Assembly (NCBI GenBank): GCA_009783695.1
Contig: WRCY01000022.1
Coordinates: forward strand, 1 to 34,445
Source of the DNA: Oscillospiraceae bacterium
GTDB taxonomy: Bacteria > Bacillota > Clostridia > Oscillospirales > Ruminococcaceae
Length of the DNA stretch: 34,445 nt
Direction of reading: 5' to 3'
A program made the translations under genes and the position numbers. The notes beneath the pieces were generated by a model, which saw nothing but the letters and a program-made list of their open reading frames with translations, ran no database searches and had not been told where the DNA came from. This document shows, one piece after another, positions 7,142 through 33,281 of this stretch; within the stretch, counting starts at the first letter, position 1; each line of letters begins with the position of its first letter.

Positions 7142-7211
7142 GTTTGAAAATAAATGATACCGAGCCGGGGAAAGCATTATTTTCACTGCATTTTTATGAA
7201 GAAAGGGCTTA
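7142..7211 (+). repeat. Element A copy A1 (before yihY-like gene)
   Basis: Begins GTTTGAAAATAAATGATACC, keeps the GGGGAAA...TTTTCA hairpin core in a diverged form, and ends GAAGAAAGGGCTTA. Its tail is interrupted by the MITE, whose target duplication TTA is the last part of the element. Confidence 0.85.
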
Positions 7212-7374
7212 GAGCCTATCCGACAATAAGACGTGTACAGATTGGCGAGTGGATTTTTCGTCAGACAAGGCAATTTTTTGGCGAATATCCGTTGATATTT
7301 AAGAAAAAATTAACGCAGTATGACGGAAAATATGCCGTCAAGATGTACGTGGACTATTGTTGGATAGGCTCTTA
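7209..7374. mobile_element. 160-bp MITE with TTA target duplication
   Basis: The element proper is 7212-7371. Left end GAGCCTATCCGACAATA and right end (reverse complement) GAGCCTATCCAACAATA are terminal inverted repeats with one mismatch in 17. Direct TTA copies at 7209-7211 and 7372-7374 flank it, the T-N-A type of target duplication made by several IS5-group elements. It has no transposase, so it would need one in trans. An interior frame of 73 codons runs across the boundary of element A and the MITE and is not considered a gene. Confidence 0.85.
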
Positions 7375-7385
7375 ACAAGAATTAA

Positions 7386-8261
7386 ATGGAAAAGCATCGC
7401 AAAAAATTCTTTTTCGTAAAGAATTTTGTTGTTATGACTAAAAACAGCATGAAAAAAAACAACGTCACGGTTCATTCAGCCGAGGCGGCGTTTTTCATCA
7501 TTATCGCGTCTTTGCCGATGGCGATGCTGTTCCTTACATTTTTGAATTACCTGCCCTTTTCCGAGGAGCAGATACAGGGCTTTTCTGTGGACTTCCTGTC
7601 GCCGCAGGTGTCGAGCTTTGTGGAAACTATGCTTGAGGAGGTTTATCTTAAAACCTCGGGTGCCGTCATATCCGTGGCTACAATAACAGCGCTTTGGGCG
7701 GCTTCGCGCGGACTGCTTTCTATGATACGCGGGCTCAACTCCATCTACGGCATTGACGAAAAGCGCGGATTCATCAAGATGCGTCTGATTACCATGCTTT
7801 ATATGCTTGCATTTATGATTACGCTGATTATTACGCTCGTGGTGCTGGTTTTCGGCAGAGTCATCGCTGACTGGCTTATCGGCGTCTTCCCCTTTCTCGA
7901 GGCTCACAGTACGTTTTTTGTCTGGACGCGCTGGCTGCTGGGCTTCTGTCTTTTGGTCTTATTCTTCTGGGTGCTTTATTCATTCGCGCCCGGACGAAAA
8001 ACCCGCTCGGTTAAAGAATTCCCCGGCGCTTTTCTAAGCGCGGCGGGCTGGGTCGGCTTCTCGGCGCTGTACTCGTTTTACATCAATAACTTCGCGAACT
8101 ATTCGTACCTTTACGGCAGCCTGACAGCCATCGTGCTCCTTATGCTCTGGCTTTATTTCTGCATGAATATTATGTTTTTCGGTGCACAGTTCAACGTCAT
8201 GATGCGCGGCGTAGTTTTCCGCCCGAGTATAAAAGGTAAAATCAGACGAAACGTATCGTAA
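7386..8261 (+). CDS. YihY/BrkB-family inner membrane protein
   Basis: 291 residues with about six transmembrane segments and the family hallmarks HSAEAAFFIIIASLP near the N-terminus, ASRGLLSMIRGLNSIYGID in the middle, and the conserved YGSLTAIVLLMLWLYFCMNIMFFGAQFN near the C-terminus. The family was once called ribonuclease BN in error; its function is unsettled. The ATG at 7386 has no ribosome binding site close by; the GAAGAAAGGG tail of element A1 is separated from it by the 160-bp MITE, so translation may be weakened. Cotranscription with ychF is possible. Confidence 0.9.
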   Translation: MEKHRKKFFFVKNFVVMTKNSMKKNNVTVHSAEAAFFIIIASLPMAMLFLTFLNYLPFSEEQIQGFSVDFLSPQVSSFVETMLEEVYLKTSGAVISVATITALWAASRGLLSMIRGLNSIYGIDEKRGFIKMRLITMLYMLAFMITLIITLVVLVFGRVIADWLIGVFPFLEAHSTFFVWTRWLLGFCLLVLFFWVLYSFAPGRKTRSVKEFPGAFLSAAGWVGFSALYSFYINNFANYSYLYGSLTAIVLLMLWLYFCMNIMFFGAQFNVMMRGVVFRPSIKGKIRRNVS

Positions 8262-8358
8262 AATTAATTACAGCAAATATATAATTACCTTGTATACCCT
8301 CTTCCGTCAAAGGTTTACAAGATTTGAAAATAAAAAATATAAAAGGAATACTAAAGAT

Positions 8359-9465
8359 ATGAAACTTGGTATGGTAGGTCTGCCCAACACGGGCAAAAGC
8401 ACGTTGTTCAACGCGCTCACAGGTGCCGGTGCAGTGTCGGAAAGCTACGCTTTCAGCACAATCGAATCCAGCATCGGCGCGGTCAGCGTTCCCGACGCTC
8501 GGCTCCTCCGCCTCGCCGAGCTTTACAACCCCGCTAAAATCACCCCCGCCTCGCTTGAAGTCGTGGACATCGCGGGCCTCGTCAAAGGCGCATCAAAAGG
8601 CGAAGGGCTCGGCAATAAGTTTTTAGCTTCCATCCGCGAGGTTGATGCGATTATTCACGTTGTGCGCTGCTTTGAGGATGAACTCGTCATGCACCCCGAC
8701 GGCGACATAAACGCAAAGCGCGACATCGAAACCATAAACCTGGAGCTCATCTTCTCCGACCTTGAAATTTTAGAGCGCAAGCTCGAACGCACCCGCAAAA
8801 ACCTTAAAGCAAGCAAGGAATTTCAAAAGGAAGCCGACTTCATAGAAAAGTTGATTACATACATGAGTGAGGGTAATACCGCCCGCAGCTACGACTTCGA
8901 TGAGTACGGGCTCGGTATAATCAAGGATGTGCCGCTGCTCTCCGCGAAGCCGGTCATATACGCGGCGAATCTGAACGAAAGCGACTTCCCCGCTGTTTTT
9001 GATACCCCCGGAAAAAACCCGCACTACGCCTATACAATAGAAGCCGCAAAGAGCGAAAACTGCGCGGTATTGCCCGTCTGCGCCAAGGTCGAAGCCGAAA
9101 TCTCGGAACTTGACGAAGAGGACAAGAAGCTTTTCCTCGGGGAGCTCGGCATGTCCGAGCCGGGGCTCAACCGCGTAATTCAACAAGGCTATGCGCTGCT
9201 CGGCTTGATTTCATTCCTCACGGCGGGCCCGCAGGAAGTGCGCGCGTGGACGATACGCAGCGGCACGAAAGCCCGCGCGGCAGCAGGAAAAATCCACACC
9301 GATATAGAAAAAGGCTTCATTAAAGCGGAAGTCACTGCATTTAGCGATGTTGACGCGCTCGGCAGCACCAACGCCGTAAAGGAAAAAGGTCTGCTCCGCC
9401 TTGAGGGCAGGGATTATATAATTAAAGACGGCGATGTGGTTTTATTTAGATTTAACAAGACGTAA
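8359..9465 (+). CDS. ychF: Redox-regulated ATPase YchF (OLA1 family)
   Basis: P-loop protein of the Obg-related family that binds ATP and contacts the ribosome. 368 residues from ATG 8359, preceded by AAAAGGA; the open frame extends 23 codons further upstream but without conserved sequence. Motifs: P-loop [11 protein letters not shown] (residues 7-17), switch region [20 protein letters not shown], and NLNES in place of the guanine-specific NKxD, as in ATP-specific YchF. The C-terminal TGS-like domain with [26 protein letters not shown] and the final GDVVLFRFN are typical. Confidence 0.97.
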
Positions 9466-9510
9466 GGGCGATTAAAAACTATATAATTTTAATATACAAA
9501 AACATGAAAA

Positions 9511-9629
9511 GTTTGAAAATAAACACAACTGAATCGGGGAAAACGTTGTTTTCATTATTCGTTTGTGAAGAAAGGACTTAATGGAAATAACAATGTTTTT
9601 ATGTCCGGTTTATGAAGAAAGGACCTAAT
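9511..9629 (+). repeat. Element A copy A2 plus a 3' half-copy (before NERD gene)
   Basis: A2 spans 9511-9583: TTGAAAATAAA head, a hairpin core GAAAAC-GTT-GTTTTC with perfect 6-bp arms, and tail GAAGAAAGGACTTAATGG. A second tail-half (about 9594-9629, ending GAAGAAAGGACCTAAT) follows, so two ribosome-binding-site-like tails lie in tandem before the ATG at 9636. The A2 frame from TTG 9513 is open through EERT to TAA. Confidence 0.85.
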
Positions 9630-9635
9630 CAATAA

Positions 9636-10376
9636 ATGCAGATTTACCGCAACAAAAACCCGTATTACCGCACGCTCATAGTCCTCTCAGCGGCACGGAT
9701 TACGCTCGTTGTGCTGCCTGTTTTCGTACTGGCTTTCCTGCTGTGGCGTATCGGCTCGGAAAACTACCTCGAAACCGCGGGCTTTGCCGTAATGATAGCG
9801 GGCATGCTGATTACATATGCGGCGCTGTCGCGGCGGTACAGGATTCTGCTCTCCGGCCATAACGGCGAACGCGCTCTTTTCAAAATCATAAAACACATAC
9901 GCTGGAGCGGAGATTGTGCCATATTTACAAACCTGCCCGTTGCATACAAAAAAAACCGCTCCGAAATCGATATGCTTCTTGTCGGCGAGCGCGGGATTCT
10001 CATTATCGAGGTCAAAAACCACTCGGGTATAATAACGGGCGACGCCGGCGACGACTTCTGGATTCAGCGCAAGAAGCACCGCGAGGGCAAGGGCGCACGG
10101 AAGAAAATGCTCAACCCGCTCATTCAGCTGCGCAGGCAGCGCGGGATTATAAAATCCCTGCTCGCCGAGAACGGCTTTGACGTGTGGGTGGAAAACGCGC
10201 TGTTCTTCTCGAACCCGAACGTGAAGCTGCAGCTCAACGCAGGAAAAAGCAGCAGCACGTTCTGCAGCCGGCACAAGCTTATCGAGTTTATCAACAGCAT
10301 GACGCCGAAGAAGCCGCTGACGAAGCGGCAATGTAAGAGTGTTATAGAAATAATTCAAAATATGAGTGAGCAATAA
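9636..10376 (+). CDS. NERD-domain membrane-anchored protein
   Basis: 246 residues. Two N-terminal transmembrane segments (about 13-36 and 46-64) are followed by a NERD (nuclease-related) domain from about 78 to 190, with EIDMLLVGERGILIIEVKNHSG, which contains the acidic EIDxLL and ExKN residues of the PD-(D/E)xK-like core. NERD proteins are suspected nucleases or nucleic-acid binding proteins; activity is not shown for most. Translation probably uses the GAAGAAAGGACC tail of the element A half-copy, 7-10 bases before the ATG. A strong terminator follows. Confidence 0.88.
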   Translation: MQIYRNKNPYYRTLIVLSAARITLVVLPVFVLAFLLWRIGSENYLETAGFAVMIAGMLITYAALSRRYRILLSGHNGERALFKIIKHIRWSGDCAIFTNLPVAYKKNRSEIDMLLVGERGILIIEVKNHSGIITGDAGDDFWIQRKKHREGKGARKKMLNPLIQLRRQRGIIKSLLAENGFDVWVENALFFSNPNVKLQLNAGKSSSTFCSRHKLIEFINSMTPKKPLTKRQCKSVIEIIQNMSEQ

Positions 10377-10400
10377 AAAGGCGGCTGTGCCGCTTTTTTA
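10375..10400 (+). terminator. Terminator after NERD gene
   Basis: A-tract, stem GCGGC (10381-10385) / GCCGC (10389-10393) with TGT loop, then a T-tract. The A and T tracts extend the stem. Confidence 0.9.
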
Positions 10401-10548
10401 TGTATATTTTAATAAATAATGAAATATATTACCCTTATAAATATTACGTTTAATGAGTTATTAGGCACAGACTCTTAACCTTTCCCCCAAAAACGCCCTC
10501 CGTCTTTTGTGTACATCTTACAAATATTTTTAATTTTTCAAACAACTA

Positions 10549-10577
10549 TTGACAAATCAGTAAAATAGTGTTACACT
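10549..10577 (+). promoter_or_regulatory. Promoter in the NERD-yfmF gap
   Basis: TTGACA, 17 bases, TACACT. The context ACTATTGACAA around the -35 box is shared with the minus-strand promoters at 18929-18957 and 21264-21292. Confidence 0.7.
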
Positions 10578-10668
10578 GGAATTGACAAAATGACCTCCAT
10601 ATTAGTTGTTTTTGTTTTAGTTGTCTCCTTTCTTTTGTTCTACACATTATGCATTATCTTACTTTCCG

Positions 10669-10698
10669 CCCCTTTTTTTAAAAGGGGTTATTTTTTTA
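10669..10698 (+). terminator. Terminator upstream of yfmF
   Basis: CCCCTTTT (10669-10676) pairs with AAAAGGGG (10680-10687), loop TTT, followed by a long T-rich run. Confidence 0.8.
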
Positions 10699-10699
10699 T

Positions 10700-10728
10700 T
10701 TGTTTTTTTTACCAATATGTGCTATACT
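10700..10728 (+). promoter_or_regulatory. yfmF promoter
   Basis: TTGTTT (10700-10705), 17 bases, TATACT (10723-10728, preceded by TGC as an extended -10). The start site would lie about 30 bases before the yfmF ATG. Confidence 0.65.
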
Positions 10729-10765
10729 AATAAAGTATGAAATAAAGAAAGGCAAGACATAAAAA

Positions 10766-12043
10766 ATGGACAACTCCTTAAAACGAGAAAAAATAGCTGA
10801 CGGCGCACATTTCAACGCTGTCTGTGACCCGCGGTTCAAGTTCAACCGCATTACTTTCGGCTTCCAAGTGCCACTCTGCAGGGAGAAAGCCTCGCTTTTC
10901 GCGTTGCTTCCGCGCTATCTGTACAGAGCCAGCTCCGAATTCCCGGGGAGCAGGGACTTCAACAACTACCTCGCCTCGCTTTATAACGCGCGTAACGAGT
11001 TCGAGGTCGCGGGCATAGGCGACACGCAGTTCCTGGGCATTTCCATGAACTTTATGGACGACAGCTACGCGCTTGCGCGGGAAAAAATCACAGAGGCGGC
11101 GGCAAGCGCTCTGTTTAACTGCGTGTTTAATCCCGTGCTTGAAAACGGCGTGTTCGATGCAAACTACGTTGAAATCTGCAAACGCGAGCAAATCGAAGCA
11201 ATCGAATCCGAGCTCAACGACAAGCGCACCTACGCCGCAAACCAAGCCAAGCGTATAATCTGTGAGGGTGAGCCCGCCGCGGTAAACCCGCTCGGCGACG
11301 CCGAAAGCACCCGCGCTGTTACGCCGGAAGCGCTTCTCGGCGCGTACCGCGAGCTTCTTGAAAGCGCTGTTATTGAAATAATCTGCGTAGGCTGTAACAG
11401 CTTCACCGACGCCCTCGCGCTCAGCAAGAAAGCGTTCACACCACTTAAAAGAATGAACACCGCCTTATCAAAATCAGCGTACAGCCCGCTTAAACCCGTT
11501 GTCACCGAAAAGACTGAACTGCTCCCGCTGCTTAATCAAAGCAAGATGGTGCTCGGCTTCAAGACCGGCGGTTATAATAACCGCGCAGCTTTATCGCTGA
11601 TGAGCAACCTCTACGGCGGCACAATCTCATCAAAGCTGTTCCTGAACGTCCGCGAGCGGCTCTCGCTCTGCTACTACTGCTGGTCGCGTGTTTATAAGGA
11701 AAAAGGTATAATGACAGTCAGCTGCGGCGTTGAGGAATCGAATATTGAAAAAGCAAAAGCCGAAATCCTCGCACAGCTTGACGCTGTTAAGCGCGGCGAT
11801 TTCACTGACGGCGACTTCACCTCCGCCTTGCTTTATGAGCAGAATAATATAAAAACCGTAAACGACAGCTTAGGCTCGCTGACATGGTGGTATTTGACGC
11901 GAATTTATATCAAATCAATCAAGTCGCCGGAGGAATCGCTCGCTGATTATAATTTAATAACCCGCGAGAACCTCACGGAAGCCGCGAACAGCATGACGCT
12001 TGATACCGTATATGTGCTGTCCGGCGACGGACGGGAGGACTAA
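10766..12043 (+). CDS. yfmF: M16-family protein YfmF (EF-P modification-associated, inactive subunit type)
   Basis: 425 residues with the M16 peptidase fold but without the HxxEH zinc motif in the first domain: the equivalent region reads GSRDFNNYLASLYNAR. That and its place directly before a zinc-bearing partner match YfmF, reported in Bacillus to be needed with YfmH for 5-aminopentanol modification of elongation factor P. The second half has the typical SKLFLNVRERLSLCYYCWSR segment (compare the R/Y pair of M16). AAAGAAAGG lies about 11 bases before the ATG. Three tandem element A copies separate it from yfmH; its stop codon (12041-12043) directly touches the first one. Confidence 0.93.
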   Translation: MDNSLKREKIADGAHFNAVCDPRFKFNRITFGFQVPLCREKASLFALLPRYLYRASSEFPGSRDFNNYLASLYNARNEFEVAGIGDTQFLGISMNFMDDSYALAREKITEAAASALFNCVFNPVLENGVFDANYVEICKREQIEAIESELNDKRTYAANQAKRIICEGEPAAVNPLGDAESTRAVTPEALLGAYRELLESAVIEIICVGCNSFTDALALSKKAFTPLKRMNTALSKSAYSPLKPVVTEKTELLPLLNQSKMVLGFKTGGYNNRAALSLMSNLYGGTISSKLFLNVRERLSLCYYCWSRVYKEKGIMTVSCGVEESNIEKAKAEILAQLDAVKRGDFTDGDFTSALLYEQNNIKTVNDSLGSLTWWYLTRIYIKSIKSPEESLADYNLITRENLTEAANSMTLDTVYVLSGDGRED

Positions 12044-12275
12044 GGTTGAAAATAACTGATACAAAATCGGGGAAAATGATGTTTCCATGCCGTATTGGTG
12101 AAGAAAGGACTTAATGGAACTAAGCTTTAAATTAAAGAATACCGAATCGGGGAAAATGATGTTTCCATGCCGTATTGGTGACGAAAGGACTTAATAGAAC
12201 TAAGCTTTAAATTAAAGAATACCGAATCGGGGAAAATGATGTTTCCATGCCGTATTGGTGAAGAAAGGACTTAAT
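12044..12275 (+). repeat. Element A array A3a-A3c (three tandem copies, 80-bp period)
   Basis: Three copies with TTAATGG/TTAATAG/TTAATAA tails at 12111, 12191 and 12271, exactly 80 bp apart. Cores are nearly identical (GGGGAAAATGATGTTTCCATG). The first TTG (12046) is 2 bases after the yfmF stop and has GGGAGG 7 bases before it. All three copies keep a frame ending in ERT-stop; the second can start at the ATG of the first copy's tail. The third ends 6 bases before the yfmH ATG. Confidence 0.95.
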
Positions 12276-12281
12276 AAAAAT

Positions 12282-13562
12282 ATGCAAAGAACTACAATAA
12301 GGAGCGAACGCGTCCGCGAGGAATACCAGGTAATCAAGCACCCGAGCGGACTCACCATCTGCCTGTATCCGATGAAAGGCTACTCAAGCACTTACGCGCT
12401 TTTCGCAACCAAATACGGCTCGGTGGACGTCACATTTAAAACCGATGACGATGACGATTATGTGACCGTTCCCGAGGGTATTGCGCATTATCTTGAGCAC
12501 AAGCTTTTCGAGAACGACGACTGCGACGCCTTCCAGCTTTTCGCGAAGACCGGCGCAAACGCCAATGCTTTCACGAGCTTCGACAAAACCGCATATTTGT
12601 TCTCTTGCTCGCAAAAGTTCGAGGAGAACCTGGAAATACTGCTCAGCTTCGTGCAGGAGCCGTATTTCACTGACGACAGCGTCGAAAAGGAGCGCGGAAT
12701 AATCGCCCAGGAAATAAAGATGTACGAGGACGACCCGGGATACCGCGTATTTTTCAACGGTCTGCAGGCGCTCTATCATAAAAACCCCGTCAGAATCGAC
12801 ATCGGCGGCACCGTCGAGAGCATCGCCAAAATCGACAAGGACCTGCTTTACCGCTGTTATAAAACATTTTATAACCTTAATAACATGATGCTGTCAATCG
12901 CGGGCAACTTTGATATTGACAAAACTCTCGAAATCTGCGACCGGCTCTTAAAGCCCACGCCCGACCTCGGACTTAAAGCTGTATTTCCCGACGAGCCCGA
13001 GCAGATTAAAACGTGCGAAACCGTGCAAAAGCTCACCTGCTCCATGCCGCTGTTCAACGTATTCTTCAAGCTTCCCGCTTATGAGAGCTCCAAGGGCGCA
13101 AAAAAATATGTTCTCTACAATATTATTTTAGAAACTGTTCTCGGAAAAACCTCGGCTTTCTATGACAGGCTCCTGAATGAGGGCTTGATTAACAACAACT
13201 TTATGGTCGGTGTGCTGAGTGGACGCGGATTCTTCACGCCCTCCGCCGACGGAGAGTCCTGCGACCCGCGCAAGGTTTTCACAGAAATAAAGACGGCGCT
13301 CAAATCCGCAAAGAGCGCAGGATTATCGGAAAAAGAATTCGAGAACGTCCGCAAGAAAACCTACGGCGAGCTCATGGGGGTTCACGGCTCGGTGAGCTCC
13401 ACCGCGACAAATATGGTCGAAGCGCATTTCCAAGGCAATAGCCTTTTTGATTTAATTGAGATTACGGCGGATTTAACTTACAGCGACGCTGTAAACGCTC
13501 TCGCAGAGCTCGACGAGGAAAACTCGTGCATATCAGTAATTGAACCGGTGACGGACAATTAA
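12282..13562 (+). CDS. yfmH: M16-family zinc peptidase YfmH (EF-P modification-associated)
   Basis: 426 residues from ATG 12282. It has the inverted zinc motif HYLEH at residues 69-73 within GIAHYLEHKLFE and the downstream glutamate region of M16 peptidases (VEKERGIIAQEIKMYEDDP). It is the active partner of YfmF. The open frame continues 9 codons upstream as VKKGLNKN, but those codons are the tail of element A and are not conserved protein, so I start at the ATG after them. The last codons (GAC AAT TAA) belong to a CAATTGA-type repeat, so the C-terminus may have been altered by repeat insertion. Confidence 0.94.
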   Translation: MQRTTIRSERVREEYQVIKHPSGLTICLYPMKGYSSTYALFATKYGSVDVTFKTDDDDDYVTVPEGIAHYLEHKLFENDDCDAFQLFAKTGANANAFTSFDKTAYLFSCSQKFEENLEILLSFVQEPYFTDDSVEKERGIIAQEIKMYEDDPGYRVFFNGLQALYHKNPVRIDIGGTVESIAKIDKDLLYRCYKTFYNLNNMMLSIAGNFDIDKTLEICDRLLKPTPDLGLKAVFPDEPEQIKTCETVQKLTCSMPLFNVFFKLPAYESSKGAKKYVLYNIILETVLGKTSAFYDRLLNEGLINNNFMVGVLSGRGFFTPSADGESCDPRKVFTEIKTALKSAKSAGLSEKEFENVRKKTYGELMGVHGSVSSTATNMVEAHFQGNSLFDLIEITADLTYSDAVNALAELDEENSCISVIEPVTDN

Positions 13563-13590
13563 CAATTGACAATGAACAATGAACAATTAA
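13554..13590 (+). repeat. CAATTGA-type heptad repeat, copy 2
   Basis: GACAATTAACAATTGACAAT followed by two ACAATGA-type units. It covers the yfmH stop codon and ends just before the AAGGAAAGGA site of lgt. Confidence 0.78.
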
Positions 13591-13608
13591 GGAAAGGATT
13601 TTTATGAC

Positions 13609-14634
13609 ATGATTGCATTTCCAAACCTGGGACTTGAATTCGAGGTCGGCAGAACGGCGTTCCGTTTTTTCGGGCTCGACATTTACTGGTACGGCGTGAT
13701 TATTTCCGCCGCAATAGTGCTCGGCTTCCTGTACGCCATGAAGCGTTCCCGGCAGTTCGGTATGATAGCCGACAAGGTCTTTGACTGCGCGGCTGTAGGG
13801 CTGCTCGGCGGATTTTTGGGTGCGCGGCTCTATTACGTAATTTTCAGTGAAACTAAATATACCATTGTCACCTTTTTTTCCAACATACGTGACGGTGGGC
13901 TTGCGATTTACGGCGGCATAATCGGCGCTGTTATATTCGGACTCATCGCTATGAAATTCAAGAAGATGAAAATGCTGCCCATTCTCGACCTTGCGGGCAT
14001 GAGCTTTCTGCTCGGCATCGGGCTCGGCAGATGGGGCAATTTCTTCAATCAGGAGGCCTACGGCGGGCTCACCACGCTCCCGTGGGGCATGACGGGCAGC
14101 AGAATCTCCCAGGATCCCGCAGTGCTGGAAGCAAGCATAAACGCGTTCCTGAGCGGCGCAGAAAACCCCGACGCGCTCGTCCACCCCTGCTTCCTTTACG
14201 AGAGCCTTTGGTGCTTGCTCGGGTTTGCACTTCTGCACTTCTATTCAAAGAAACTGCGTACATTCGACGGTGAGATTTTCCTGCTTTTTGCGGCGTGGTA
14301 CGGCTTTGGGCGGGTATTCATTGAGCAGCTGCGCTCCGACAGCCTTATGCTCGGCGGCTTTAAAATCTCGCAGCTGTTGGCTGCGGCTTCTTTCGGCGCG
14401 GCAATCGGCTCATTTATCTACTTCAAGCAGAAAACCCGCAAGGAACCAAAGCTTTACAGCAGCAGCGACGAAAGCGCAGCGGAAATTTCCGCCTATGAAT
14501 TGAAGCTCAAGCTCGGTAAAGAAAAAACAGAAGCGAAAAAAGCACTCAATAAAGCAGAAGAAATCGCACCAAGCATATTAGGCGGCAACCACTCCTCCAC
14601 AGAGGAGAATGAACAAAAGGAAGGCAAAGTTTGA
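13609..14634 (+). CDS. lgt: Prolipoprotein diacylglyceryl transferase
   Basis: Membrane enzyme that transfers diacylglycerol from phosphatidylglycerol to the lipobox cysteine of prolipoproteins, the first step of lipoprotein maturation; the lipoprotein at 3644 is a likely substrate. 341 residues with seven predicted membrane segments. The signature GRWGNFFNQEAYGG, the catalytic-region stretches GGLAIYGGIIG and HPCFLYES, and the N-terminal YWYGVII are all present. The last 70 residues are a charged, helical cytosolic tail longer than usual. AAGGAAAGGA precedes the start; an ATG at 13604 reads ATGACATGA and is a three-codon overlap, not the start. Its stop TGA overlaps the TTGA of element A4. 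Confidence 0.95.
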   Translation: MIAFPNLGLEFEVGRTAFRFFGLDIYWYGVIISAAIVLGFLYAMKRSRQFGMIADKVFDCAAVGLLGGFLGARLYYVIFSETKYTIVTFFSNIRDGGLAIYGGIIGAVIFGLIAMKFKKMKMLPILDLAGMSFLLGIGLGRWGNFFNQEAYGGLTTLPWGMTGSRISQDPAVLEASINAFLSGAENPDALVHPCFLYESLWCLLGFALLHFYSKKLRTFDGEIFLLFAAWYGFGRVFIEQLRSDSLMLGGFKISQLLAAASFGAAIGSFIYFKQKTRKEPKLYSSSDESAAEISAYELKLKLGKEKTEAKKALNKAEEIAPSILGGNHSSTEENEQKEGKV

Positions 14635-14700
14635 AAATAAATAATACCGAATCGGGGAAAACGACGTTTTCATTTCCCGTTGGTGAAGAAAGGACTTAAT
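14629..14700 (+). repeat. Element A copy A4 (lgt-folD junction)
   Basis: TTG at 14631 overlaps the lgt stop TGA (14632-14634); AAGGAAGG lies 6 bases before the TTG. Hairpin core GAAAACG-A-CGTTTTC has perfect arms nested in an outer CGGG/CCCG stem. Tail GAAGAAAGGACTTAATG ends 6 bases before the folD ATG. The TTG frame is intact to TAA. Confidence 0.93.
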
Positions 14701-14706
14701 GAAAAT

Positions 14707-15552
14707 ATGAAGATGGCACAAATTCTTGACGGAAAAGCAATGAGCGCGGACATCAAGGCAGAAATCAAAGCGGAAATAGAACGCGGCAACCTGCAGGTCG
14801 GGCTGGCTGTGGTTTTGGTCGGGGACGACCCCGCGAGCCGCATTTACGTCGACTGGAAGAAGAAAGACTGCGCCGAGTGCGGAATTAAATCCTTCGAGCA
14901 TATTCTGCCCGCCGACGTGGAGCAAAGCGAGCTTTTCGCGCTCATCAACAGGCTCAACGCCGACACCGCTGTAAACGGCATACTTATTCAACAGCCGCTC
15001 CCAAGACAAATTGATGTCACAGCAGCAAATGAGCGGATTAACCCGCTCAAGGACGTCGACGCGTTCCACGCCGAAAATACCGGCAGAATCATGACGGGCG
15101 ATTACCGCCTGACCGCCTGCACGCCCGCCGGCGTCATGGAAATGCTGAAGCGCGCGGGAATTGAAGTCGCAGGCAAGGACTGCGTGGTGGTCGGGCGCAG
15201 CAACATCGTCGGCAAGCCGATGGCGATGATGCTCCTGCACGAGCACGGCACGGTTACAATTTGCCACAGCAGAACCCAAAACCTCGCCGAAATTTGCCGC
15301 CGAGCTGATATACTTGTCGCGGCAATCGGCAAAAAAGATTTCATAACAGCGGATTTTGTGAAAAAGGGCGCAGTCGTCATTGACGTCGGCATGAACCGCG
15401 GCGAGGGCAAAAAGGTCTACGGCGATGTTGATTATGATAATGTCGAGCCGCTCGCAGGTTGGATTACGCCCGTTCCGGGCGGTGTCGGCCCCATGACCCG
15501 CGCGATGCTCATGAAAAACACGCTGACCGCGAAAAAATTGCAATTGTCATGA
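14707..15552 (+). CDS. folD: Bifunctional methylenetetrahydrofolate dehydrogenase/cyclohydrolase
   Basis: Interconverts 5,10-methylene-THF and 10-formyl-THF, linking to Fhs encoded at 28438. 281 residues. YVDWKKKDC carries the conserved Tyr and Lys of the active site, QQPLP the substrate loop, GRSNIVGKPMAMMLL the dinucleotide-binding region, and PVPGGVGPMTRAMLM the C-terminal signature. ATG 14707 and 14713 are both possible starts; the upstream VKKGLNEN codons are element A. Its stop overlaps the next start by ATGA. Confidence 0.96.
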   Translation: MKMAQILDGKAMSADIKAEIKAEIERGNLQVGLAVVLVGDDPASRIYVDWKKKDCAECGIKSFEHILPADVEQSELFALINRLNADTAVNGILIQQPLPRQIDVTAANERINPLKDVDAFHAENTGRIMTGDYRLTACTPAGVMEMLKRAGIEVAGKDCVVVGRSNIVGKPMAMMLLHEHGTVTICHSRTQNLAEICRRADILVAAIGKKDFITADFVKKGAVVIDVGMNRGEGKKVYGDVDYDNVEPLAGWITPVPGGVGPMTRAMLMKNTLTAKKLQLS

Positions 15553-16303: not shown

Positions 16304-16560
16304 TTAAGAATGTTTCATCAAACAAAAAAAGCGTAAACGCCTTAAAAATGCACTGTACCGTTAGGGGAAGGAATAGTTTTTAAGGTTCATTAAGAATGTT
16401 TCATCAACAAAAAAAGCGTAAACGCCTTGAAAATGCACCGTACCGTTAGGGGAAGGAATAGTTTTTAAGGTTCATTAAGAATGTTTCATCAAACAAAAAA
16501 GCGTAAGCGCCTTGAAAATGCACTGTACCGTTAGGGGAAGGAATAGTTTTTAAGGTTCAT
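16304..16560 (+). repeat. Three tandem 85-86 bp repeats between rplU and rpmA
   Basis: Units start TTAAGAATGTTTCATCAA at 16304, 16390 and 16475 and differ at only a few positions. Each has the small palindrome GCGTAAACGC (GCGTAAGCGC in the third) and ends CCGTTAGGGGAAGGAATAG then TTTTTAAGGTTCAT. The ends resemble the tail of element A copy A10 (CCCGTTAGGGAAGAAAGG), so a distant relation is possible. There is no reading frame through the array. This accounts for the whole 296-bp rplU-rpmA gap. Confidence 0.95.
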
Positions 16561-16585
16561 CAAGTATGAAAGGATGATTGAAAAA

Positions 16586-16843: not shown

Positions 16844-16853
16844 TTATGATACA

Positions 16854-16893: not shown

Positions 16894-16966
16894 AGGTTAA
16901 ACAGTTTTAATAAAACAAAATCGGGAGATGTTGTTTTCATACCGTTTTTGTTAAGAAAGGACTAAT
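16894..16966 (+). repeat. Degenerate element A copy A5
   Basis: Keeps AAAATCGGGAGATGTTGTTTTCAT and the tail GTTAAGAAAGGACTAATTG but has lost part of the stem and is frameshifted relative to other copies. It ends 10 bases before the ATG at 16977. Confidence 0.75.
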
Positions 16967-16976
16967 TGAAAATAAA

Positions 16977-17350: not shown

Positions 17351-18643
17351 ATGTTTGCAGATATTGTAAAAATCTCGGTTAGGGCAGGCAGCGGCGGCAA
17401 CGGCGCGGTTTCCTTTCACCGCGAGAAATACGTGGCGTCCGGGGGGCCGGACGGCGGCGATGGCGGCAAGGGCGGCGATATTATCTTCAAAGCAGACGAT
17501 AATTTATCCACGCTTATCGATTTTCGCTACAAGCGTAAATACATCGCCGAGGACGGCAAAAAGGGCGACCAGAAAAAAAGCACCGGCAAATCCGCGCCCG
17601 ACACCGTCATAAAAGTCCCTCGCGGAACTCTCATAAAAGATAGCGAAACAGGCAGGCTCATCGCCGATATTTCGGGCAGTGAGCCTGTTATAGTCGCGCG
17701 CGGCGGCAAGGGCGGCAAGGGTAACATGAACTTCGCGACGCCCCGGCGGCAGGCTCCGCGCTTCGCGAAACCCGGCTTCCCGGGGGTGAAGTTCGGGCTC
17801 ACGCTCGAGTTGAAGCTGCTCGCGGACGTAGGGCTTGTCGGATTCCCGAACGTGGGCAAGTCAAGCCTCATCAGCGCGGTGTCAGCAGCAAAGCCCGAAA
17901 TCGCGAATTACCATTTCACTACGCTCACGCCCGTGCTCGGCGTGATTAAGGTCGATGAGAAAAGCTTTGTCATGGCGGACATTCCCGGGCTTATTGAGGG
18001 CGCGAGCGGCGGCGCGGGACTTGGACATAATTTCCTTAGGCACGTTGAGCGCTGTCGGCTTATTATCCACGTCGTTGATGTTTCGGGCATTGAGGGACGC
18101 TGTCCGAAAGAAGATTTTGAAAAAATCAATTATGAATTATCACAATTTTCGCAGGAGCTCGCCGCCCTCCCGCAAATCGTCGCGGCAAACAAGTCCGACA
18201 TCGCAACCGATGAACAAATTGAGGACTTTAAAAATTATATTAATAATTGTCAATTGTCAAATGTCAATTGTCAATTGTTCGTCATTTCTGCTGCTACGAA
18301 AAAAGGCACGGCAGACTTAGTGAATCACGCCGCAGCGCAGCTCGACGACCTGCCGCCCGTGAAGCTGTACGAAGCCGAGCCGGTATCGCTTGAGGAGCTT
18401 GAACGCAGGAGCTCCGGAAAACGCGTCTTCGCCGTAAACAAGCTTGAGGACGACCTTTATGAGGTCAAGGCCGAATGGCTGGCGCCGATACTCGCGATGG
18501 TGAACATGGACGACTACGAGAGCCTGCAGTATTTCCAGCGGGTTCTGCGGTCGTCTGGGATTATCGACGCGCTGGAAGCGGCGGGGATTCAAGAGGGCGA
18601 CACGGTGAGCGTGTTTGATTTTGAGTTTGAGTTTATAAATTAG
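17351..18643 (+). CDS. obgE: GTPase Obg with C-terminal OCT domain
   Basis: Essential ribosome-assembly and stress GTPase. 430 residues: Gly-rich Obg domain (1-158) with repeated GGxGG motifs, G domain with P-loop GFPNVGKSSLI (about 164-174), DIPGLIEGAS and NKSD motifs, and a C-terminal OCT domain (about 345-428). Residues 298-309 (NNCQLSNVNCQL) are encoded by a CAATTGA-type repeat inserted in frame between the helix after NKSD and the strand leading to the SAA motif. The frame stays open, so the protein is probably functional with a longer surface loop. The ribosome binding site is weak. Following rplU-rpmA is the standard order. Confidence 0.96.
   Translation: MFADIVKISVRAGSGGNGAVSFHREKYVASGGPDGGDGGKGGDIIFKADDNLSTLIDFRYKRKYIAEDGKKGDQKKSTGKSAPDTVIKVPRGTLIKDSETGRLIADISGSEPVIVARGGKGGKGNMNFATPRRQAPRFAKPGFPGVKFGLTLELKLLADVGLVGFPNVGKSSLISAVSAAKPEIANYHFTTLTPVLGVIKVDEKSFVMADIPGLIEGASGGAGLGHNFLRHVERCRLIIHVVDVSGIEGRCPKEDFEKINYELSQFSQELAALPQIVAANKSDIATDEQIEDFKNYINNCQLSNVNCQLFVISAATKKGTADLVNHAAAQLDDLPPVKLYEAEPVSLEELERRSSGKRVFAVNKLEDDLYEVKAEWLAPILAMVNMDDYESLQYFQRVLRSSGIIDALEAAGIQEGDTVSVFDFEFEFIN
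18244..18280 (+). repeat. CAATTGA-type heptad repeat inside obgE (copy 3)
   Basis: AATTGTCAATTGTCAAATGT then more of the same unit, in the reverse orientation to copies 1 and 2. It is read in frame as NCQLSNVNCQL in the Obg G domain. Confidence 0.85.
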
Positions 18644-19503: not shown

Positions 19504-19577
19504 GGTTGAAACAAGCGGCAATAAACCGGGGAAAACGAAACTTTTTTATTCCTCGTTGGTGCAGAAAGGGCATGGTG
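19504..19577 (+). repeat. Element A copy A6 between hicA and hicB
   Basis: TTG at 19506 lies 3 bases after the hicA stop and 8 after a GGAGG site. The core GGGGAAAACGAAACTTTTTT and the tail CAGAAAGGG are diverged. A frame from ATG 19499 runs through this copy into hicB without a stop (29 extra codons), so a longer HicB form could be made. Confidence 0.85.
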
Positions 19578-19585
19578 AAAATATT

Positions 19586-22293: not shown

Positions 22294-22451
22294 GTTTGAA
22301 AATAAATATAACTGCATCGGGGAAAACGAAACCTTTCATTCCCCGCTTATGAAGAAAGGACTTAATGAAAATAAGAACATTTGAAAATAAATATAATTGA
22401 ATCGGGGAAAACGAAACTTTTCATTCCCCGCTTATGAAGAGAGGACTTAAT
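22294..22451 (+). repeat. Element A copies A7 and A8 (85-bp period) after yebC
   Basis: TTG at 22296 and 22381. A7 starts 2 bases after the yebC stop and has CGGAGG 7 bases before its TTG. Both have the outer stem CGGGGAA/TTCCCCG fully paired and a frame ending at TTATGA. They are followed by a terminator, so they would lie in the yebC 3' UTR rather than in the leader of the next gene. The rest of the 326-bp yebC-topoisomerase gap holds a terminator-promoter and copy A9. Confidence 0.92.
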
Positions 22452-22471
22452 GAAAATAAGAACATTTGCTG

Positions 22472-22540: not shown

Positions 22541-22612
22541 GTTTGAAATAAAATCCCCATGAATCGGGGAACACGCTGTTTTAATTCTTCTTTGGTGAAG
22601 AAAGGACTTAAT
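22541..22612 (+). repeat. Element A copy A9 in the topoisomerase B leader
   Basis: GTTTGAAATAAAATCCCCAT head, GAATCGGGGAACACGCTGTT core, tail GGTGAAGAAAGGACTTAAT, then ATG at 22620. The TTG frame is broken after two codons. CCCC in the head can pair with GGGG in the core as an alternative stem. Confidence 0.88.
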
Positions 22613-22619
22613 AAAAATT

Positions 22620-25168: not shown

Positions 25169-25421
25169 TAAAATCCCCGAAATAATCGCCATGACCATCA
25201 AAACCATCATCTTCGTCAAGGACCCCATGGAGCTCGCAGACACGATAAAACTTCTCGGCGACAACTATGAAGTATTGTATGAGAAAAGCAACGAAGCGAT
25301 TGAAGAAGCCGTAAAGCGGTTTGTCACCGGCTCCGGGCTGCCTGAGTGCCATCTGCACCGGTTTGAAACCACGGACTGGATTGGCTATCATATCTTTATT
25401 TCCGGCATAAAAGAATGTTGA
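25158..25421 (+). CDS. Small hypothetical protein between topoisomerase subunits
   Basis: 87 residues with AAAGGAG 8 bases before the ATG and 11 bp overlap with the previous gene. Composition is that of a small alpha/beta protein: TIIFVKDPMELADTIKLLGDNYEVLYEKSNEAIEEAVKRFV. No family recognised. Its stop TGA overlaps the TTGA of element A10. Confidence 0.7.
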   Translation: MEHNKIPEIIAMTIKTIIFVKDPMELADTIKLLGDNYEVLYEKSNEAIEEAVKRFVTGSGLPECHLHRFETTDWIGYHIFISGIKEC

Positions 25422-25489
25422 AAGCAACTGATACAAAATCGGGGAAAATGGAGCATTTCATTTCCCGTTAGGGAAGAAAGGGCTTAATG
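25418..25489 (+). repeat. Element A copy A10 before topoisomerase A
   Basis: TTG 25418 overlaps the upstream stop (25419-25421). Core GGGGAAAATGGAGCATTTCA shows paired changes: AAATG and CATTT keep the inner stem. Unlike other copies it is followed by a separate AAGGAGC site, which serves the TTG start of the next gene. Confidence 0.9.
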
Positions 25490-25514
25490 GAAATAAGTTT
25501 AAGGAGCTCAGATT

Positions 25515-27782: not shown

Positions 27783-27794
27783 ATATTGTATAAT
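27765..27794 (+). promoter_or_regulatory. Promoter at the hairpin array
   Basis: TTGACA (27765-27770), 18 bases, TATAAT (27789-27794). The start site would be about 27801, exactly the first base of the first hairpin. Confidence 0.65.
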
Positions 27795-27800
27795 AACCTC

Positions 27801-28024: not shown

Positions 28025-28028
28025 ATAA

Positions 28029-28232
28029 TTAAAATCTATCCTCGGTCCTGTTAAACAAATAATCCAAACTCGTGTTGTAATAATCGGCAATCCGCCATAA
28101 TACATCTAAAGTGAAGCTCCGCGCCCCCCTTTCATAGTTCCCGTAAGCGCTTCTGCTGATATTTAGTGCTTTTGCTATTTCGTTCTGGCTTAAATTGCTT
28201 TCGTTGCGTAATGCCTTAATTCTTTCAAACAT
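28029..28232 (-). CDS. Small XRE-family regulator (67 aa), led by element A
   Basis: Single helix-turn-helix domain: LSQNEIAKALNISRSAYGNYERGARSFTLDVLWRIADYYNTSLDYLFNRTED. Start ATG 28232. An upstream open extension (MKKGLNGN) is the tail of element A11 and is not part of the domain. Promoter at 28347-28375 on the minus strand; between them lie a stranded GGAGG site and element A11. It faces the XRE-Fhs gene on the other strand, so the two regulators may cross-control the shared region. Its 3' end runs to the hairpin array. Confidence 0.88.
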   Translation of the reverse strand: MFERIKALRNESNLSQNEIAKALNISRSAYGNYERGARSFTLDVLWRIADYYNTSLDYLFNRTEDRF

Positions 28233-28237
28233 ATTTC

Positions 28238-28313
28238 CATTAAGTCCTTTCTTCACTAACGGGAAATGAAATATTTCGTTTTCCCCGATTTTGTATCAGT
28301 TATTTTCAACCTT
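28238..28313 (-). repeat. Element A copy A11 (minus strand, XRE leader)
   Basis: Read on the minus strand: TTGAAAATAACTGATACAAA head, GGGGAAAACGAAATATTTCA core, tail GTGAAGAAAGGACTTAATGG, then the XRE ATG 6 bases on. GGAGGT lies 8-9 bases before the TTG. Confidence 0.93.
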
Positions 28314-28346
28314 ATTGACCTCCATCGGATTTTTAAGACTATCTTT

Positions 28347-28375
28347 ATTATAATCTACATTACGGAAATTGTCAA
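28347..28375 (-). promoter_or_regulatory. Consensus promoter for the minus-strand XRE gene
   Basis: Minus strand: TTGACA (complement of 28370-28375), 17 bases, TATAAT (complement of 28347-28352). The leader of about 110 nt contains GGAGGT and then element A11. Confidence 0.85.
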
Positions 28376-28437
28376 TGTTAAAATATAATAAATATTTACA
28401 TATTGGCAATCATAAACTTGTGCATATTGAGGTATTT

Positions 28438-30372: not shown

Positions 30373-30806
30373 TGATTTATAAATCAAATTCAAGCGATGA
30401 AACTATAAAAACAGGTGAAGAGCTGGGACGTGAAATGGGTGCAGCGATTCTGCCGCCGGCGGCTCGCCGGGCTGTTTTGCTTTACGGCGGCATGGGAGCG
30501 GGCAAGACGCACTTCGTCAAGGGCATAGCGCAGGGACTCGGCATTAGCGCAAACGTTACAAGCCCTACTTTCGCTATTGTAAACGAGTATGAAGACCGGC
30601 TTTTCCACTTCGACCTGTTCAGAATCACGAGCTTTGACGACCTGTATGCAATCGGCTTTTTCGATTATCTTGACCGCGGCATAATCGTATGTGAGTGGAG
30701 CGAAAATATCCCCGAACTTGAGCGCGAATTCGAGAAGTTTTATAAAATCACAATCACTAAGACCGGTGAAAATGAAAGAGAAATCAATGTTAATTCTGGG
30801 ACTTGA
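30372..30806 (+). CDS. tsaE: tRNA t6A synthesis ATPase TsaE
   Basis: ATPase of the complex that makes N6-threonylcarbamoyladenosine at tRNA position 37. 144 residues with Walker A GGMGAGKTHFVKG (about 38-50), TSPTFAIVNEY and FHFDLFRI segments. The ATG overlaps the fhs stop by one base. It overlaps tsaB by 35 bp. Confidence 0.95.
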   Translation: MIYKSNSSDETIKTGEELGREMGAAILPPAARRAVLLYGGMGAGKTHFVKGIAQGLGISANVTSPTFAIVNEYEDRLFHFDLFRITSFDDLYAIGFFDYLDRGIIVCEWSENIPELEREFEKFYKITITKTGENEREINVNSGT

Positions 30807-31515
30807 CAGCAGCGCAAAAGCCGCTTCCTGCGCGGTTTATGACTCGCAGGCGCAAAGCGTTATAAGCTATGGCGGCGTAAACGCCGAAATCACACATTCC
30901 GAAACCTTGCTTCCGCTTGCCGAAAACATTTTAAAAGCGGCGAAGCTGACGCTCGGCGACATCGGTGCTTTCGCTGTCACCGCGGGTCCCGGCTCGTTCA
31001 CGGGTGTGCGGATTGCCGTGAGTGCAGTCAAGGGAATGGCTTTTGCTGCCGAAAACCTCGGCTCCCGAAATCGCCGTTTTGCGGCGGACTGCTCTGTTTT
31101 CCCCGTTTCATCACTGCACAGCCTTGCATATAATCTGCTCGGTCGGGAGTGCGTTGCCTGCTGCGTCATGGATGCGCGCAGAGAGCAGTTTTACAATGCG
31201 ATGTTCAGAATCAGCGGTGATAAAATCACGCGCCTTACCGAAAACCGCGCAATCGGGAAAGCCGAGCTTGAAGCCGAGCTTTTAAATTACGAAGACGATA
31301 TAATTGTAACCGTCGGCGACGGCGCGGACTTATTTATTCCCGAGCTGTGCGCGCCGATTGCACAAAGGCAGCAAAGTGCAGTCAGCGTCTGCCTTGCCGC
31401 CTTAGAATATGAACCGGTAGCGGCGAAAGAATTAATGCCCCTGTACCTGCGTTTACCGCAGGCAGAAAGAGAACGCCGGGCGGGTGCAGGCAGTGCTCCG
31501 CTCAGCAGCAACTGA
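30772..31515 (+). CDS. tsaB: tRNA t6A synthesis protein TsaB
   Basis: Actin-like ASKHA-fold partner of TsaD. 247 residues from ATG 30772; ATG 30787 (MLILGLDSSAKAASCAVYD) is an alternative, and both overlap tsaE. LILGLDSSAKAASCAV is the phosphate-1 region; GPGSFTGVRIAVSAVKGMAF is the family signature. The open frame reaches back to 30691 but only as an overlap of tsaE. tsaD is not in the window. Three element A copies follow. Confidence 0.94.
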   Translation: MKEKSMLILGLDSSAKAASCAVYDSQAQSVISYGGVNAEITHSETLLPLAENILKAAKLTLGDIGAFAVTAGPGSFTGVRIAVSAVKGMAFAAENLGSRNRRFAADCSVFPVSSLHSLAYNLLGRECVACCVMDARREQFYNAMFRISGDKITRLTENRAIGKAELEAELLNYEDDIIVTVGDGADLFIPELCAPIAQRQQSAVSVCLAALEYEPVAAKELMPLYLRLPQAERERRAGAGSAPLSSN

Positions 31516-31533
31516 CAAATATTTTAAGGAAGT

Positions 31534-31766
31534 GTCAAAGCTTAAAATTAAAATTTGTTTAATCGGGGAAACGTTGTTTTCATGCCCGTTTGTTGAAGAA
31601 AGGACTTGAAATGTCGAAGCTCGTAAATAAAGTTGCTTAATCGGGGAAAACGTTGTTTTCATGCCCGTTTATTGAAGAAAGGACTTGAAATATCAAAGCT
31701 TGAAAATAAAAACTGCTTAATCGGGGAAAACGTTGTTTTCATGCCCGTTTATTGAAGAAAGGACTT
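31534..31766 (+). repeat. Element A array A12-A14 before rpiB
   Basis: Three copies with AATCGGGG at 31561, 31639 and 31719 (periods 78 and 80). Cores GAAAAC-GTT-GTTTTC are identical in the last two. Tails are GAAGAAAGGACTTGAAAT in the first two and GAAGAAAGGACTTATTT in the third, 9 bases from the rpiB ATG. Heads are RTCRAAGCTTG-like and include stop codons in the TTG frame, so here the short frame is not intact. This accounts for the 260-bp tsaB-rpiB gap. Confidence 0.95.
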
Positions 31767-31775
31767 ATTTAAAAT

Positions 31776-32204
31776 ATGATTTATGTTGGAAGCGACCATG
31801 CGGGCTACCCGCTCAAAACCGCGCTGGTTGAATATTTAAAGGAAAACGAAATAGAATTCACCGACCTCGGCTGCAACGGTGAAACCGTGGATTATCCCGA
31901 TATAGCTCGCCTTGTCTGCGGGAAAGTACTTGAAAGCGCGGATAACCGCGGCGTGCTTGTCTGCGGCACAGGCATCGGGATTTCTATGGCGGCCAACCGC
32001 ATAAAAGGCATAAGAGCGGCACTTTGCGGCGATTATTACTCGGCGAAATTCACCCGCAGGCACAATGACGCAAACGTCATCTGCTTCGGCAGGCACGTTA
32101 TTGGCGCGGGGCTCGCCGCCGAGCTTTTGGACGTGTTCCTTAACACCGATTTTGACGGGGGCAAGCATACTCCCCGCATTAATAAAATAGAAGGAGAAAT
32201 ATAA
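31776..32204 (+). CDS. rpiB: Ribose-5-phosphate isomerase B
   Basis: Interconverts ribose-5-phosphate and ribulose-5-phosphate. 142 residues: [10 protein letters not shown] at the N-terminus, DYPDIA, and the catalytic-Cys loop [22 protein letters not shown] are diagnostic. The ribosome binding site is the AAGAAAGGA tail of element A14. Its stop overlaps the upp ATG by one base. Product ribose-5-phosphate feeds PRPP, the co-substrate of Upp. Confidence 0.96.
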
Positions 32205-32833
32205 TGGACAACCTTAAAATTTTAGACCATCCTTTGTTACAGCACAAAATCTCCCTGCTCCGCGATAAAAACACGATTATGAAAGAATTCCGCGAGCTTG
32301 TGAGCGAGATTTCCATGCTTATGACCTACGAGGCGACCCGAAGCCTACCGCTCAAGGAAGTGCAGGTTCAAACGCCTGTCGCTATTGCAACCACTAAAAT
32401 TATATCCGGCAGAAAAGTCGCGCTGGTACCTATTCTGCGTGCAGGGCTCGGCATGGTGGACGGCGCGTCCGCGCTTATCCCTGCGGCTCCCGTCGGGCAT
32501 ATCGGCGTCTGCCGCGACGGTAAGACAGGCGGCGTTTCAGAGTACTACTGCAAACTTCCCGTTGACATAGCCGACCGTGAGGTTATTGTGATGGACTTGC
32601 TGCTCGCAACAGGCAACTGCGCCGCGCACGCAGTGCAGAAGCTCAAGGACGCGGGCTGTAGGTCGCTTAAATATATCTGCGTCATCGCCTGCCCCGAGGG
32701 CGTGAAAACGCTCAGCGCGGCACACCCTGACGTTGATATTTACTGCGGCGCGCTTGACGAGGGGTTAACCGACGACCTGTACATCACGCCGGGAGTCGGC
32801 GACGGCGGGGACAGGATTTTCGGGACAAAGTGA
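32204..32833 (+). CDS. upp: Uracil phosphoribosyltransferase
   Basis: Salvages uracil to UMP with PRPP. 209 residues with [13 protein letters not shown] and the C-terminal [17 protein letters not shown] typical of the family. The PRPP loop reads [15 protein letters not shown] where most homologues have DPMLATGGSA, so the loop is somewhat divergent. AAGGAG lies 8 bases before the ATG. Translationally coupled to rpiB. Confidence 0.95.
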
Positions 32834-32863
32834 TTCTTTGGACAGGCTTTCGACAAATCCGTA

Positions 32864-32869
32864 TATAAT
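32864..32869 (+). promoter_or_regulatory. Candidate -10 box for the phage-type gene
   Basis: TATAAT at 32864-32869; the best -35 is TGGACA at 32839-32844 with a long 19-base spacer. The start site near 32876 would place the whole sequestering hairpin at the 5' end of the mRNA. Confidence 0.45.
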
Positions 32870-32882
32870 ACTGCATTTTTTT

Positions 32883-32929
32883 ACCTCCGGACTAATATAA
32901 TTAAGAAATTAATTATATAAACCGGAGGT
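32883..32929 (+). promoter_or_regulatory. Hairpin that hides the ribosome binding site
   Basis: ACCTCCGG (32883-32890) pairs with CCGGAGGT (32922-32929), covering the GGAGG site of the gene at 32936. Inside, a 10-bp AT stem (32895-32904/32909-32918) is capped by GAAA, a GNRA tetraloop, with a small internal loop between the stems. Confidence 0.8.
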
Positions 32930-32935
32930 TATTTT

Positions 32936-33199
32936 ATGGACAATATAACAAAGCAGGTGAATGATTATAAATCGCTTAAAACCACAATCAAAGACCTTGA
33001 GCAAAGATTAAAAGCAATTGAGGGAGAAATTAAAAATTATATGGGCGATGAGGAGGAGCTCATTGTCGGCGGGAACACCGTTCGCTGGAAAAGAATAGTT
33101 TTAAATAAATTTGACGTAACAGAATTTAACGCCCAGCATCCTGTTTTATATGAGCAGTTCTTAAAGCAAAGCGAGTCAAGAAGATTTACGGTTACATAA
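32936..33199 (+). CDS. Small phage-type protein (orphan)
   Basis: 87 residues: N-terminal coiled coil (YKSLKTTIKDLEQRLKAIEGEIKNYMGD) followed by EELIVGGNTVRWKRIVLNKFDVTEFNAQHP and a C-terminal ESRRFTV. This pattern resembles small proteins encoded beside YqaJ-type recombinases in prophages; assignment from memory. No other phage genes are nearby, so it appears to be a domesticated or stranded copy. GGAGG lies 7 bases before the ATG but is in a hairpin. It converges with the NfeD-like gene across element A15. Confidence 0.72.
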   Translation: MDNITKQVNDYKSLKTTIKDLEQRLKAIEGEIKNYMGDEEELIVGGNTVRWKRIVLNKFDVTEFNAQHPVLYEQFLKQSESRRFTVT

Positions 33200-33206
33200 T
33201 TATTTC

Positions 33207-33281
33207 CATTAAGTCCTTTCTCCACAAACGAACAATGAAAACAACGTTTTCCCCGGCTCGGTATCATTTATTTTCAACCTT
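33207..33281 (-). repeat. Element A copy A15 (minus strand, convergent junction)
   Basis: On the minus strand the TTG (complement of 33275-33277) follows the NfeD-like stop by 3 bases, with GAGGAA about 12 bases before it. Core GAAAAC-GTT-GTTTTC, tail GGAGAAAGGACTTAATGG. The short frame is intact to TAA. Unlike the others it leads into no gene; the next coding sequence is convergent. Confidence 0.92.

Follow-up and report, generated by a model that had tools for sequence, protein, structure and literature searches.

Why does a short repeat stand directly in front of the start codon of one gene after another in the same bacterial genome? The question is raised by a 34,445-nt stretch of DNA (here called the window) from an Oscillospiraceae bacterium whose genome, 2.23 Mb in size, is designated G000. 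A first-pass annotation of the window listed 17 copies of an intercistronic element with a hairpin and a ribosome binding site, and suggested that this element could be mobile, could serve an entire regulon as an RNA control site, or could do both. Here we argue, at a probability that we put at about 0.72, that the element is a non-autonomous mobile repeat which inserted in the sense direction directly 5' of start codons, downstream of the native Shine-Dalgarno (SD) sequence, and which brings a replacement ribosome binding site.

A repeat in front of start codons

Copies were searched with an iterated profile (threshold E < 1e-3) in a sample made of the window and 20 further stretches of G000, taken from contigs C1 to C5 and covering 434 kb of the 2.23 Mb. 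This yielded 188 copies, which group into 130 arrays (single in 91 cases, double in 24, triple in 11 and quadruple in 4), or about 960 copies genome-wide by extrapolation if the sample is representative. Moreover, a search of the whole genome for the 17-nt tail of the element, with no more than 2 mismatches allowed, gives 377 hits and the reversed pattern none, so the repeat is far beyond chance. The element measures about 80 bases: the tandem period in G000 peaks at 75-77 and 79-81, and recent copies in a relative from the same genus, G012, define an 80-bp unit, AAGTTTGAAAC...GAAAAT, with the ATG directly after it. Copies share a conserved core, CGGGGAAAACG, and a conserved tail, and the 3' end carries an extended SD, AGAAAGGA, which presumably matches the 3' tail of the 16S rRNA. 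With a mean identity of 69%, the copies of G000 are old and diverged.

Placement was scored from the SD (AAAGGA) of the last copy of an array to the start of an open reading frame (ORF) of at least 60 codons. The last AAAGGA lies 4-17 nt 5' of such a start in 113 of the 130 arrays, compared with 8.2% of random intergenic positions and 13.4% of random genome positions, and such a start lies 2-32 nt past it in 114 of the 130 arrays versus 24.6% at random positions. The commonest spacing is 12 nt (61/130). In the window itself, 8 of the 12 arrays have the ATG of such an ORF 12-15 nt past AAAGGA, so the earlier observation that copies sit just 5' of start codons in the sense orientation holds both there and in the larger sample. 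The next gene is in sense for 156 of the 188 copies and in antisense for 13, while 19 lie inside ORFs of a crude caller. These counts are the independent evidence for the sense bias, as orientation at the sites compared with relatives (below) follows from the design of that comparison.

By crude gene calls, 99 of the 407 genes in the sample, roughly a quarter, carry the element. Carriers comprise 77 of the 301 genes with a same-strand upstream neighbour and 22 of the 106 with a divergent one, which are similar shares, so the term intercistronic is too narrow; portable leader, with the ribosome binding site that it carries, describes the element well. Placement is alike in the other carrier genomes of the genus that were inspected. 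In G012 the distance from the element SD to the ATG is exactly 12 nt in 18 of 21 arrays, most of these loci having been fetched for holding the tail, without regard to gene context. Among loci chosen for holding a copy, an ORF starts 2-27 nt past the last copy in 36 of 39 arrays in G006, 15 of 17 in G020, 10 of 11 in G045 and 10 of 11 in G100. Copy number, placement and sense bias are thereby demonstrated at the level of sequence.

Empty sites, the native SD and the history of the element

Comparison of orthologous sites had been proposed as a check, and it did reveal empty sites in relatives. We compared 57 places between a carrier (G000 for 44, G012 for 8, G053 for 5) and a relative, which was G023, the closest relative of G000 by FolD and ribosomal genes, in 40 of the 57. 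At none of the 57 aligned places was a copy detectable in the relative with the profile built from G000 copies, which a strongly diverged copy could escape. The ATG directly 3' of the element is homologous and common to both genomes at 45 of the 57 places, and at 43 of these 45 an SD precedes the shared ATG in the empty site, which indicates that the element inserted between SD and ATG. Two junctions are clean. At the copy at 16894 in the window, G023 has the native GGAGGTT followed directly by AATAAAATG; at rplO, G023 has ACAGAAGC joined directly to ATGAAATTACATG, and in G053 TTGAAAC...AAAGGACATGGGGAAAAC stands between the same two sequences.

A native SD stranded upstream of the element can also be recognised in the carriers. 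In arrays with a clear head, an SD-like word was sought 2-18 nt 5' of the head and in a control window further upstream; it was found in 50 of 82 arrays in G000 (control 11), 16 of 21 in G012 (1), 22 of 39 in G053 (9), 20 of 23 in G006 (3) and 10 of 11 in G100 (0), G020 and G045 being without a scorable head.

We therefore propose a mechanism in which the repeat would insert in the sense direction between the native SD and the ATG, the downstream gene would keep the same ATG and be translated from the element SD, AGAAAGGA, and the stranded native SD would decay. Each insertion would create a new gap between SD and ATG, in which a later copy could land, and nested insertion together with simple duplication would explain the tandem arrays. 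Insertion might take place as copying-in guided by short stretches of homology, at the SD and also at ATGAA. The nearest copy of 63 copies in G000 arrays is an array-mate for 38 and a copy elsewhere for 25, so that duplication and nested insertion are both likely origins of the arrays.

The tail pattern is present in many copies in 3 of the 71 genomes of the genus, and the profile finds matches in 10 of the 71; that only three genomes carry the element is thus true of the tail only. Profile counts are at least 86 in G000, 73 in G053, 69 in G012, 68 in G006, 55 in G020, 33 in G100 and 29 in G045, and at the low end at least 3 in G056, 3 in G003 and 1 in G023. When more candidates were scored in G006, 150 of 150 were matches. 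No copy was present in the 835 kb of G023 that were searched, and the one profile match in its genome (L290, at G023:C53:12287) is its single element-like sequence. The carriers hold lineage-specific subfamilies of like layout. At G012 and G053 loci such as L152, L211, L221 and L241 the element has a longer form of about 93 nt, into which a palindrome of the type GCTTCGTTTTAAAACGAAGC is inserted.

In G012, 13 of 34 copies are at least 95% identical to a copy in a different array, at unlinked genes, which demonstrates, on sequence grounds, recent amplification in this relative. Older insertions are also evident. G000 has a copy as well at 7 of 8 sites occupied in G012 and at 4 of 11 occupied in G053. 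Three genes of the ribosomal protein operon, rplV, rpsK and rplQ, have copies in both G000 and G012; at these three genes G023, G045 and G056 have gaps too short for a copy, or a plain SD. Some insertions would thus be older than the divergence of G000 from G012, and G023 would either fall outside this pair or have lost its copies. A tree of 17 genes (9,259 nt) places the element-poor G023 beside G000 (support 74), and the approximately unbiased (AU) test does not reject a grouping of G000 with G012 (p = 0.17), so both loss in G023 and later spread are compatible with the tree.

Spread by phage was considered, and the exact 19-nt tail has no match in viral contigs (diverged tails were not tried). 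In genome contigs the same tail has at least 64 matches, and among the matches listed all come from two metagenome-assembled genomes; the long core pattern has none in a collection of genome contigs from which its own genome was left out.

Proposed targeting and its alternatives

These sequence comparisons give good support to a mobile, mostly sense-oriented repeat that stands at start codons and has an SD of its own. We infer further that the element SD is the one used, that placement results from targeting rather than from selection alone, and that some factor moves the element. A broader proposal, which we hold to be about as likely as not, is a class of mobile DNA that targets the translation start: it would recognise the gap between SD and ATG or a start-codon feature (ATGAA, for instance), insert in a single direction and switch the gene to an element-borne ribosome binding site. 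An AAn codon follows the ATG in 74% of cases in G012, 61% in G053, 50% in G020 and 80% (n = 10) in G100, versus 32% in G023, and ATGAA is a possible target preference in recent bursts. If the proposal is true, about a quarter of the sampled genes, ribosomal protein operons included, would have had their initiation regions remade by successive bursts within one genus.

Several observations weigh against the reading of a mobile repeat that replaces the native SD. The genomes compared are nearly all draft assemblies. Twelve of the 57 places have no shared ATG by the rule used, poor alignments being among them, and the gyrA copy stands 5' of the native SD. Only 14 of the 45 compared sites still have an SD that can be recognised ahead of the element head, versus 43 of 45 in the empty relatives, a loss that would be expected if the native SD was no longer needed. 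Judged by eye, the sequence ahead of first copies in G006 is often similar to the element tail, and some of the 20 of 23 stranded SDs may be remnants of older copies. ATGAA is not enriched in G000 (36%), G006 (34%) or G045 (33%), and the age of the G000 copies leaves time for selection to shape their placement.

The ends of the element and the search for a mobilising gene weigh on the same side. Terminal inverted repeats were sought in the 80-bp unit of G012 and in a single copy from the window and were not detected, the first and last 25 bases scoring 4 against a shuffled mean of 4.3-4.4. Nor was a long target duplication detected in 120 of the 130 arrays, where flank similarity is 8.18 versus 8.48 for mispaired flanks, 2-5 bp being beyond the resolution of this comparison. 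A direct repeat of the two ends was not above shuffles, and duplication of the start region as a target site, to which the copy at L050 had pointed, proved not to be general. The Y1 (RAYT) transposase family PF01797 is found in none of 4 genomes, versus 5 of 14 control genomes, and the reverse transcriptase family PF00078 is absent from G000 (94% complete); it occurs once each in G012, G053 and G017, twice in G023 and not in G045, G056 or G020. RAYT and reverse transcriptase are thus not supported as drivers, and no mobilising gene was found in a search limited to the Y1_Tnp and RVT_1 families.

The alternative that survives best, although we hold it to be unlikely, is untargeted insertion in A-rich DNA followed by selection, such that mainly sense copies beside a start codon survive, their SD rescuing translation. 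The age and divergence of the G000 copies speak for it, as do the other placements that exist, among them the 13 antisense and 19 intragenic copies described above. Under such a process, neutral sites such as convergent gaps, or positions 5' of the native SD, should hold most of the survivors, yet 113 of the 130 arrays lie at 4-17 nt. Furthermore, the arrays of G012, many of them recent, have the same exact 12-nt spacing.

That the element is a regulon-wide RNA control site, conserved through a trans factor acting on it, seems to us quite improbable. The conserved core and tail, the housekeeping operons in which copies occur and the 7 of 8 G012 sites occupied in G000 would agree with it, as would a GCAC-N4-GTGC hairpin that adjoins the SD in G006 and G100; this hairpin hardly varies, hence it has no covariation of its own. 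Genus-wide, the arms just 5' of the SD are fully paired in 61 of 313 copies versus 26 permuted, the excess arising between lineages and not within them. The first-pass annotation had argued for selection on structure from inner stems that keep pairing while their bases change. On 118 G000 copies, however, the nested hairpin it named has 77.7% paired cells versus 77.9% in shuffled copies, double changes affect 5 pairs versus 5.5, and RNAalifold predicts no pair; with no covariation and no predicted pair, this structural argument fails for the window and a conserved hairpin in G000 is rejected. Mean folding z is -0.34 in sense and -0.61 in antisense, and of 14 single folds twelve lie within 1.7 standard deviations of shuffles, the other two at -3.0 and -2.1. 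No Rfam model reaches its gathering score anywhere in the window, and the three weak matches in 9400-14800 do not fall over a copy. Moreover, G000 is occupied at only 4 of the 11 G053 sites, and G023, with one profile match genome-wide, keeps native SDs at the compared sites. Between the two possibilities raised at the outset, the mobile repeat has therefore gained from empty sites, near-identical copies at unlinked genes and lineage subfamilies, and the regulon-wide RNA site has lost from the lack of covariation and from carrier genes that differ between relatives, if not always.

A translated leader peptide (some copies read LKINxTESGKTLFSF..EERT*) has hardly any probability left and is rejected. 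The frame stays open between the head and the tail TAA in 22 of the 104 scored copies, but 61 of the 104 run into a stop 5' of the tail SD, and the distance from head to tail is spread over all three frames (45, 30 and 29 copies). A three-frame stop cassette was likewise rejected, stops in all frames being present in 55 of 156 copies versus 81 in shuffles.

Known repeats and the copies of the window

To return to the mobile repeat, the element is short, non-coding, present in many copies and missing from sites in relatives, which are features of miniature inverted-repeat transposable elements (MITEs). As portrayed in the accounts cited here, MITEs and MITE-like repeats (Correia/NEMIS, RUP, BOX and SPRITE) are short, multi-copy, non-autonomous, intergenic, lineage-restricted, likely parasitic and able to nest (PMC3049150, PMC2229807, PMC10969869), and in all of this the element resembles them. 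It differs from MITEs in that the inverted similarity of its ends does not exceed that of shuffles and that a long target duplication could not be detected. The pneumococcal repeats BOX, RUP and SPRITE are described as over-represented between convergent genes (PMC3049150), at a distance from gene starts, whereas the element stands before start codons, oriented in sense. The signal evident in it is an SD; what these reviews discuss for MITE-like repeats is promoters and IHF sites. ERIC sequences, according to the same sources, lie in transcribed regions and affect mRNA in an orientation-dependent manner (PMC3049150, PMC2229807). The element is like them in its transcribed location and in the importance of orientation, but the effect recounted for ERIC is on the stability of upstream mRNA, and placement at start codons does not figure in the passages concerned. 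Rickettsia palindromic elements are reported to be tolerated by fitting host translation (PMC10969869); many of them sit in frame inside ORFs. Here too the repeat fits host translation, but it lies 5' of ORFs and its frame is not conserved.

REP/RAYT systems comprise hundreds of short intergenic copies. The element is similar in this respect and differs in that the genomes lack the Y1 transposase (0 of 4) and G000 copies lack a conserved hairpin. Among the matches listed in a search of the open literature, judged by title and the start of the abstract, none described an element of this kind. In a single genome, a parasite-like repeat would have settled perhaps close to 1000 times in the gap between SD and ATG, the most sensitive spot of a gene, seemingly because it brings a ribosome binding site with it. 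This would amount to a natural experiment in genome-wide swapping of ribosome binding sites, and it asks what machinery finds start codons in DNA.

All 17 listed copies were recovered in the window, at or a few bases off the coordinates first given, and the profile added a truncated 18th; all end coordinates are approximate, and copies are on the plus strand unless noted. Copy 1 (7142..7213) has no gene start that could be found directly 3' of it. Copy 2 (9511..9586) forms a tandem array with the truncated copy (9589..9631), absent from the earlier list, of which only the 3' half is present and which adjoins the ATG of a NERD-domain gene at 9636. Copies 3 (12044..12120), 4 (12124..12200) and 5 (12204..12280) form a tandem trio 5' of an M16 peptidase gene. 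Copy 6 (14629..14707) lies between lgt and folD, and at 14634 the TGA of the element head is the stop of the lgt ORF; in G053 the element does the same at rplO, where it restores the stop codon of the upstream gene at a stop/start overlap. Copy 7 (16894..16974) is the one with the clean empty site in G023, and copy 8 (19504..19583) belongs to a subfamily GTGCAG...GGCATGG.

Copies 9 (22294..22372) and 10 (22379..22457) are a tandem pair; no start was found after this array, directly 3' of copy 9 included. Copy 11 (22541..22619) adjoins gyrB on its 5' side. Copy 12 (25416..25494) is 5' of gyrA, with the native SD downstream of the element, and is the ninth window array with a start, a TTG 32 nt past AAAGGA. 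Copy 13 (28233..28313, minus strand) is 5' of a minus-strand ORF given as 28029-28256 in the ORF list, whose likely ATG is directly 3' of the element. Copies 14 (31534..31611), 15 (31613..31690) and 16 (31693..31773) form a second tandem trio, 5' of an ORF at 31776, and copy 17 (33201..33281, minus strand), like the arrays at 7142 and 22294/22380, has no start found directly 3' of it.

Two other kinds of repeat were seen in the window. An unrelated 85-bp repeat occurs three times in tandem at 16321-16575, 5' of an ORF at 16574 that is probably rpmA, and the 434-kb sample contains no further copy. AT-rich intergenic words of the type ACAATTGACAATTAACAATT occur at 510-537, 13561-13588 and 18242-18269, and also between ribosomal protein genes of relatives.

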